Shown piece by piece: positions 34,969-36,943 of a stretch of 64,000 bases of DNA (position 1 is the stretch's first letter; each line of letters starts with the position of its first letter). This DNA comes from Candidatus Omnitrophota bacterium (lineage in GTDB: Bacteria; Hinthialibacterota; Hinthialibacteria; Hinthialibacterales; JAKPRU01). The stretch is taken from NCBI GenBank assembly GCA_029570205.1, contig JAKQSI010000090.1:1-64000 (forward strand), read 5' to 3'. Position numbers and translations under genes: made by a program. Under the pieces are notes generated by a model, which did no database searches, was not told the DNA's origin, and saw only the letters and a list, made by a program, of their open reading frames with translations.

Positions 34969-35001
34969 ACAGGTCCAAGAATCCGCCGGGACCTGTATAA
35001 T
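34969..35001 (+). promoter_or_regulatory. Promoter overlapped by an inverted-repeat operator
   Basis: A perfect 8-bp inverted repeat, ACAGGTCC (34969-34976) and GGACCTGT (34989-34996) with a 12-bp centre, ends at a perfect -10 box TATAAT (34996-35001). The dyad covers where the -35 element should be (about 34973-34978, GTCCAA, weak). Binding of a repressor here would block the promoter. The transcript would start about 30 nt before the ATG of the ATPase gene at 35037. Confidence 0.65.
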
Positions 35002-35036
35002 GAAGGAGCGAACGCAACCGCGAAAAGGGAACGAAT

Positions 35037-36395
35037 ATGACACCAGATCCGAAGGCAAAGAGCGGAAAAGAGAACCCGGAAGAATCCGGAATCACGAAGA
35101 TCACCGTCGAGGGATTCAAATCCATCGCGGAGAGACAATCCATTGAAATCCGCCCACTCACCATCCTTGCCGGGGCCAACAGTTCGGGTAAATCCAGCAT
35201 CATGCAGCCGCTTTTGCTGCTCAAGCAAACCGTAGAATGTGGTTACGATCCGGGACCCCTACTACTGGAAGGTCCAAATGTCTCTTATACATTACCGGAG
35301 CAGTTTCTTTCGAAGATTAGGACTGCTTCTGTCGCAAAAAGCCTTATTATTGGACTACATTTTTCTCATGACATGGAATTCAAGGTCATCTTTGACAAGA
35401 AAAAAGAATCGCGAGACCTTGATCTCCTCGAGCTCACGCAGAAGCTGGGAAGGGATGAAAAAGAACACAGTATCCGTCAAGGAATGAGTCGAGAAGAATT
35501 GTGTGATATGATTAAAGATGATGAGGGAGCCATGGGTATTATGGCGCATCTTTTCGAGCAGGCGTCAAAAGATTCACCATGGAGTATAGATCGGGATCGG
35601 TGTTTCTTCCGAGTAAGAGTCTCATCGGGAACCAGGATTACTATCCCATTAGGCCATGTTTTTGAACCGTTGATCGCAGACATAATTCACGTGCCAGGAC
35701 TCCGTGGCAATCCTGAAAGGACTTACAAGAAGACGGCAACAGGTCCCCGCTTTCCCGGCACTTTTGAGAATTATGTCGCGAGTGTTATCAGTGATTGGAA
35801 GGCAAGAAAAGACAAACGTTTGGACGATCTCAGCAAGAACCTGGAAAAGTTGGGATTGACCTGGAAAGTGGACCCCGCTGAGCGAGATGCAACTGCAATA
35901 GAAATTCGCGTCGGGCGATTGAAATGTGCAGATAACCAGGAAAAAAACGATTTGGTCAGTATTGCGGATGTGGGATTCGGGGTTTCCCAGGTTCTGCCGG
36001 TTCTGGTGGCTCTCCTTGTGGCAAAACCGGGGCAATTGGTCTACCTGGAACAGCCGGAAATCCATCTGCATCCGCGCGCGCAGGTGGCTTTGGCGGAAAT
36101 TCTGGCGGACGCGGCAAGACGTGGGGTCCGCGTGGTTGCGGAAACCCACAGCGCCATGCTTTTACTGGCCGTTCAGTCCTTGGTCGCGGAGGGAAAGATA
36201 GAAACGGATAAGGTCATATTGCATTGGTTCGAGCGTAACGAAGAAGATGGAACCACGAAGATTCGTTCCGGGGATTTGAATGAAGCGGGCGCTTATGGAA
36301 AATGGCCGGTGGATTTCGGGAAGGTGGAACTGGAATTGCAGGGCCGCTATCTGAATGCGGCGGAGGGTCACCTGTGGGGAAAATCGACGAAATGA
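35037..36395 (+). CDS. DUF3696-like AAA/ABC-type ATPase of a two-gene module
   Basis: A 452-residue SMC/ABC-like ATPase. The N-terminus ITKITVEGFKSIAER and Walker A LAGANSSGKSSIMQPLLLL (about 44-62) lead into a variable middle (about 90-290). The C-terminal core has a signature-like IADVGFGVSQVLPVLVALL, Walker B LVYLEQPEIHLHP, and the switch histidine in VVAETHSAMLLLAVQ. The ending resembles DUF3696 proteins (COG4938 type), found in many suspected defence loci. AAAGGGA lies at 6 nt. GC is visibly lower at about 35,240-35,700 than in neighbouring genes, a hint of transfer. Its end overlaps the next gene, so the two proteins are made together. Confidence 0.85.
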   Translation: MTPDPKAKSGKENPEESGITKITVEGFKSIAERQSIEIRPLTILAGANSSGKSSIMQPLLLLKQTVECGYDPGPLLLEGPNVSYTLPEQFLSKIRTASVAKSLIIGLHFSHDMEFKVIFDKKKESRDLDLLELTQKLGRDEKEHSIRQGMSREELCDMIKDDEGAMGIMAHLFEQASKDSPWSIDRDRCFFRVRVSSGTRITIPLGHVFEPLIADIIHVPGLRGNPERTYKKTATGPRFPGTFENYVASVISDWKARKDKRLDDLSKNLEKLGLTWKVDPAERDATAIEIRVGRLKCADNQEKNDLVSIADVGFGVSQVLPVLVALLVAKPGQLVYLEQPEIHLHPRAQVALAEILADAARRGVRVVAETHSAMLLLAVQSLVAEGKIETDKVILHWFERNEEDGTTKIRSGDLNEAGAYGKWPVDFGKVELELQGRYLNAAEGHLWGKSTK

Positions 36396-36943
36396 CGGAG
36401 ACCGAATCGAAGCGGGTTGTGATTGATGCTTCTATTGCCGGCGCGGCTGGGGGAGAAGCCGCAACGTATTCAACCTCGATCAACTGCACGAACTTCCTGA
36501 ATGTCTTTTACCTGGATACCGATCTTATCATGGTGATGACTCTGGAAATCCGAGGCGAGTGGAAAGAACACCGGTCTAATTTTGCATACACATTTCTCGC
36601 AAATATGGTCTCCGACGATCGAATATGTTCAATACAGGAAGACGACCTACTGGAAATCAGGAAACTCAAGTCCAAGATGGACCCAATTCCTCTGCGAAAG
36701 AAACTCCGTGAGGATCTGGAAAAAGATTTTATCTTGATAGAAGCTGCCCTGGCAACGGACAAGACAGTCATCTCTCTTGATGACAAGGCTCGCAAAGGAT
36801 TCGAGCAAATCAGCCAGGAATTGAAGAAATTGAGAAGCATCGTTTGGGTGAATCCCGACCGGCACATTGAAGCCGTGTTGTCGTGGCTGAAAGACGGTGC
36901 GAATCCGGTTGAGGAATACCGACTTGGTTTTCGTTCCGGGTGA
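36374..36943 (+). CDS. PIN-like domain protein, probable nuclease partner
   Basis: A 189-residue protein from GTG 36374 (GGAGG at 7 nt), or 183 residues from ATG 36392, which forms ATGA with the ATPase stop; either way the genes overlap. The sequence has a PIN-like pattern: RVVIDAS near the start (Asp18), a helical middle, then KDFILIEAALATDKTVISLD with acidic Asp118, Glu123 and Asp136. This fits the last acidic motifs of metal-dependent PIN RNases. The second acidic residue cannot be fixed by eye (Glu58 or Glu62 are candidates). I know no named family for it. Coupling to an ATPase suggests a regulated nuclease. Confidence 0.65.
   Translation: MGKIDEMTETESKRVVIDASIAGAAGGEAATYSTSINCTNFLNVFYLDTDLIMVMTLEIRGEWKEHRSNFAYTFLANMVSDDRICSIQEDDLLEIRKLKSKMDPIPLRKKLREDLEKDFILIEAALATDKTVISLDDKARKGFEQISQELKKLRSIVWVNPDRHIEAVLSWLKDGANPVEEYRLGFRSG

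Follow-up and report, generated by a model that had tools for sequence, protein, structure and literature searches.

An overlapping ATPase and PIN gene pair, very probably a so far undescribed bacterial defence against viruses

The window analysed in this study, a stretch of 64,000 nucleotides from a Candidatus Omnitrophota bacterium, carries two overlapping genes on its forward strand, preceded by a perfect dyad. The features of this locus are as follows.

34969..34996, no strand: 28-nt perfect dyad ACAGGTCC-N12-GGACCTGT, probable operator (identical in sister species G009, found exactly once in the genome)
34996..35001, plus strand: TATAAT, probable -10 box of the promoter of the pair (assigned from the consensus alone; a clear -35 is lacking)
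35037..36395, plus strand: ABC-type (Rad50/PtuA-like, DUF3696-type) ATPase, 452 aa, probable sensor/regulator (motifs, profile and structure matches)
35307..35681, plus strand: ATPase codons 91-215, fast-evolving insert, candidate recognition region (identity between sister species)
36392..36943, plus strand: PIN-fold protein of 183 aa with the quartet D12/E56/D112/D130, a probable effector nuclease (alignment, predicted structure)

Both open reading frames named in the original prediction are present as described, and the stop codon of the ATPase gene overlaps the start of the PIN gene in the sequence ATGA. Of the two starts proposed for the PIN gene, the ATG at 36392 within this overlap fits the homologues better than the GTG at 36374, which is set aside. 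The pair is flanked by ychF, an unknown gene and rimI, in line with the unrelated neighbours that had been predicted, and an AT-richer stretch does lie within the ATPase gene (codons 69-215, 44% GC against 55% for the window). The pair also has a probable dyad-covered promoter of its own, in which the perfect dyad abuts the TATAAT directly, and this whole block is identical in G009. The genome holds one exact copy of the dyad, the one at 34969-34996. A regulon governed by it was considered and rejected, as imperfect copies numbered 29 in the genome versus 25 in a reversed control. To judge from its sequence, the dyad looks like a private operator; an obvious DNA-binding domain is encoded by neither gene of the pair.

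The first protein is an ABC ATPase of the Rad50/SMC/PtuA type. All four of the predicted motifs were located, including Walker A (GANSSGKSS, residues 46-54), the signature (VGFGVSQ, residues 312-318), Walker B (LVYLEQPE, residues 334-341) and the switch histidine (H371, within ETHS). The protein matches AAA_21/AAA_15 of Pfam at 1e-23. Its description as DUF3696-like holds in part, since close relatives are annotated as DUF3696, but the Pfam DUF3696 model itself gives 12.8 bits against a cut-off of 22. Among the PADLOC models the best is NsnB of Menshen (2.8e-55), followed by PDC-M55A (1.8e-39) and HEC-03B (PDLC04148, E = 1e-38). The AriA models of PADLOC range from 1e-22 to 1e-26 (best 7e-26), and the PtuA model of NCBIfam falls far short of its cut-off (14.8 bits, with 500 required). 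When the AlphaFold model of the ATPase (pLDDT 71) was compared by Foldseek, it matched Rad50, SMC heads and PtuA of Septu and retrons, with E values of about 1e-11 to Rad50 and PtuA. Conservation is uneven along the protein: between the window genome (G000) and G009, the core (residues 1-90 and 300-452) shows 89-93% amino acid identity, whereas residues 91-215 show 33%. We take this fast-evolving insert as a candidate recognition region. Separately, a DUF3696-like ATPase of 225 aa in another genome (G008, L020 737-1414) has its Walker A and B regions joined with the middle missing, and looks decayed.

The second protein is predicted to adopt a PIN nuclease fold with an acidic quartet, which agrees with the PIN-like character first proposed for it. 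Structure comparison alone revealed this fold: Pfam, NCBIfam, PADLOC and PHROGs all failed to give a usable match, and sequence searches of the PDB gave no PIN match. An AlphaFold (AF2) model from five sequences (pLDDT 84) has an alpha/beta/alpha fold, and its structural match list (VIA) consists mostly of PIN domains with Z of 7.7-10.5, including VapC toxins, HARP (protein-only) RNase P, Nmd4, SMG6 and Nob1. The best of these matches (Z 10.5) covers 129 residues at 2.8 A, and sequence identity to VapC toxins is about 6-15%. Three of the acids assigned in the original prediction stand, as Asp18, Asp118 and Asp136 correspond to D12, D112 and D130 when counted from the ATG start. The remaining one, Glu123 (E117 from the ATG), does not, since some copies have Q, D or N there; the fourth conserved acid in the aligned copies is E56. 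The quartet D12, E56, D112 and D130 is conserved in the aligned copies, with D12 replaced by Asn in a single one. This homologue (L064 5948-6496) is possibly inactive or may use another mechanism. Two points count against the defence reading proposed below, namely this Asn at the first catalytic Asp and the Foldseek E values to PIN domains, which are only marginal (best 2e-3).

The ATPase and PIN genes form a constant, co-diverging pair and are a real unit. A profile search with the PIN family finds it in 8 of the 386 sampled genomes, a sporadic occurrence that sets the pair apart from a conserved core gene set. Further PIN loci were found by profile in two more genomes and six IMG/VR contigs, and a seventh viral contig with the pair was reached through an ATPase search, giving 17 loci in all, spread over prophages and several bacterial phyla. 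Among them, the PIN gene of G009 is split over two contig ends, and L076 and L077 are near-identical. Profiles succeeded where single-sequence scans of the genome contigs and viral contigs gave no matches; searches for the PIN protein in plasmids (window and prophage copies as queries) and in phage GenBank records (prophage copy as query) likewise gave no match. Adjacency in other genomes, on which the original prediction had been staked, holds at all 17 loci: the ATPase gene lies directly upstream of the PIN gene, overlapping it or, where measured, separated by no more than about 12 nt. The ATPases of the pair fall in a single clade (support 100/100), and no member of this clade was seen without a PIN partner. 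Pairwise distances of the ATPases and the PIN proteins are correlated in a mirror-tree comparison (r = 0.833), with none of 10000 permutations giving so high a value. Both genes are under purifying selection. Comparing G000 with G009, which belongs to the same genus, gives a dN/dS of 0.23 for the ATPase gene and, over its N-terminal 58 codons, 0.21 for the PIN gene, compared with 0.21 for rimI and 0.10 for ychF in the flanks, and these values for the two genes argue that the gene pair is not a product of chance.

The genomic setting differs between the window copy and its relatives. In the window, the pair stands alone between ychF and the small gene adjoining rimI, with no island or mobile element. 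In G009 it occupies the same site with flanks 83-86% identical, which indicates vertical inheritance of the window copy in this genus. There is no support for its recent mobility, given its single inherited site; a mobile nature of the module is established for the family, which is carried by prophages, but not for the window copy. In G006, from the same order, the pair adjoins an unrelated deacetylase-like gene. In another part of that genome (L023 1559-4508), a different large AAA ATPase gene appears, on reading the sequence, to lie beside two VapC-like PIN genes and restriction-modification-like genes. The prophages that carry the pair are of Bacillus type, their host being inferred from the sequences, and they hold it in a variable slot with a small integrase on one side and HNH/terminase genes on the other. 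Two of these cargo slots place the pair next to a complete Kiwa operon. In L072 (3185-6843), Kiwa (KwaA 1.1e-67, KwaB 4.6e-125) and the pair stand side by side, and in L071 (2078-8687) Kiwa (KwaA 1.5e-42, KwaB 1.2e-76) and the pair are joined by an ABC-3C/PDC-M68 system. Another prophage copy adjoins a PD-T7-4 relative, and in G269 the pair lies in a chromosomal defence island, with genes for AbiTii, a TIR protein and an MmeI-type IIG restriction enzyme downstream. Relatives of the pair are found in defence islands, a point that the original prediction had put up for checking, and such neighbours constitute strong guilt by association. What counts against a defence role is the window copy itself, alone among housekeeping genes and at the same site in the sister species. 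This position between core genes, the one site in the genus and the purifying selection would also suit ordinary housekeeping genes of RNA processing or repair with no part in defence, a reading that we regard as very improbable in view of the sporadic occurrence, the prophage carriage and the defence neighbours of the family.

The original prediction knew of no named system that joins this ATPase type with this small PIN-like protein. This needs a correction, as HEC-03 (Hma-embedded candidate), a candidate system in PADLOC, combines a PIN-like HEC-03A, although of another sequence family, with a DUF3696 ATPase, HEC-03B, and is the closest named system. As in our pair, the DUF3696 ATPase gene of HEC-03 overlaps the gene that follows it, whose product of about 160-180 aa shows a PIN-like acidic pattern, and our ATPase matches HEC-03B at the level given above, below NsnB and PDC-M55A. 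The HEC-03A model, however, does not match the PIN protein of the window, nor the pair's PIN gene in the eight genomes with the pair that were searched. That search did recover genuine HEC-03A genes elsewhere in G005, G006 and G052. In a comparison of seven members, the best value was only 0.023. A profile comparison of HEC-03A with this family was not significant, and the ATPases of the pair and of HEC-03 form separate clades, on long branches that leave the deeper branching unsure. From the missing HEC-03A match, the non-significant profile comparison and the separate clades, it follows that the pair is a variant beside HEC-03 and not HEC-03 itself. HEC-03-type pairs were also seen elsewhere. 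One in G005 (L018 3632-5511; same order as the window genome) has a stop/start overlap of 4 nt. On a Rhodococcus plasmid (L078 4028-6590) and an Aeromonas plasmid (L079 3998-6626), an RNA ligase gene stands behind a HEC-03-type ATPase gene and a PIN-like gene. It is annotated as such on both plasmids and matches Pfam RNA_ligase at 2.9e-34 for Aeromonas, so that a nuclease and a possible repair enzyme share one operon in two distant hosts. The PIN-like partners on these plasmids, which have the acidic pattern, match HEC-03A at 1e-23 to 1e-24. In the literature we found HEC-03 listed in a rumen survey only, with no functional test. 'DUF3696' turned up in one unrelated paper. The search covered published, mostly open-access papers, so that a later name for the system is possible.

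Taken together, we consider it likely that the pair is a two-gene anti-phage module, probably of the abortive kind, with the ATPase as sensor and the PIN nuclease as effector. The ATPase may form a dimer or larger assembly that keeps the PIN protein inactive, and its insert (residues 91-215) would detect a phage component. An ATP-dependent rearrangement would then release or activate the PIN protein, which would cut RNA, most likely tRNA or rRNA, and so halt both translation and the growth of the phage. Expression is probably kept low by the dyad that covers the promoter. We infer the defence role strongly, and RNA or tRNA as the target moderately, by analogy with the PIN superfamily and from a ligase gene next to PIN genes of another family. 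The closest PIN structures agree with an RNA target, and so does the RNA ligase gene downstream of HEC-03 pairs, since a ligase in that place fits RNA breakage. Rad50-Mre11 and the SMC proteins show that the ATPase family includes systems acting on DNA. A defence module with invading DNA instead of RNA as the substrate of the PIN protein, under the direction of a Rad50/PtuA-like ATPase as in Rad50-Mre11 or PtuA-PtuB, is unlikely in our view, because the closest PIN structures belong to RNases (VapC, HARP RNase P and SMG6) and because of that same ligase gene. A defence role, which the original prediction had raised as an inference alongside a toxin role, is supported: a second protein lacking the PIN fold, homologues of the two genes lying apart, or a conserved core gene set without mobility were named there as grounds for giving it up, and none of these was found. 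If this is true, the PIN (VapC) fold joins the effectors driven by OLD/PtuA-type ATPase sensors, and toxin RNases become linked to triggered abortive defence. The PIN partner was missed by four family libraries, which suggests that such modules are probably under-counted. The insert of the ATPase offers a testable region for the phage trigger, and the Bacillus-type prophage copies ease laboratory testing.

Comparison with known systems places the pair beside several of them. VapC toxins share its PIN fold, with Z up to 10.5, and a toxin-antitoxin or addiction module, with a PIN toxin and an ATPase antidote serving maintenance or stress dormancy instead of phage sensing, would explain this likeness together with the tight gene overlap and a dyad over the promoter as in autoregulated toxin-antitoxin operons. 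We judge it quite improbable, because the pair has no gene for a small DNA-binding VapB antitoxin: the partner is instead an ABC ATPase of 452 aa that carries a fast-evolving insert and not a small labile antitoxin, the presumed toxin is encoded by the second gene, and the relatives have defence neighbours. Among defence systems, Menshen (NsnABC) provides the best PADLOC model for the ATPase in NsnB, but a DUF262 gene is absent from the immediate neighbours tested and the partner is a PIN protein. PDC-M55A matches the ATPase without being the top model, and in the search of the PADLOC models the second protein has no match to a PDC-M55B model at E <= 1. Septu and the retron PtuA-PtuB systems share the ATPase fold and the two-gene logic of ATPase and nuclease, but PtuB is an HNH nuclease, and HNH models do not match our PIN protein. 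In PARIS, the AriA ATPase keeps the AriB nuclease inactive and senses phage proteins, and AriB, once released, cuts host tRNAs (PMC12409363). The pair resembles PARIS in its ABC ATPase sensor, which AriA models match, and its separate nuclease, and differs in that the AriB effector is a Toprim protein whereas ours has a PIN fold and is not matched by AriB models. The logic of the pair would be that of PARIS or Septu with a PIN effector instead. We lean towards an undescribed and widely distributed anti-phage system: a Rad50/PtuA-type ATPase would sense infection by means of its hypervariable insert and activate a PIN ribonuclease of a family unknown to the libraries, in the manner of PARIS but with the VapC fold replacing Toprim.
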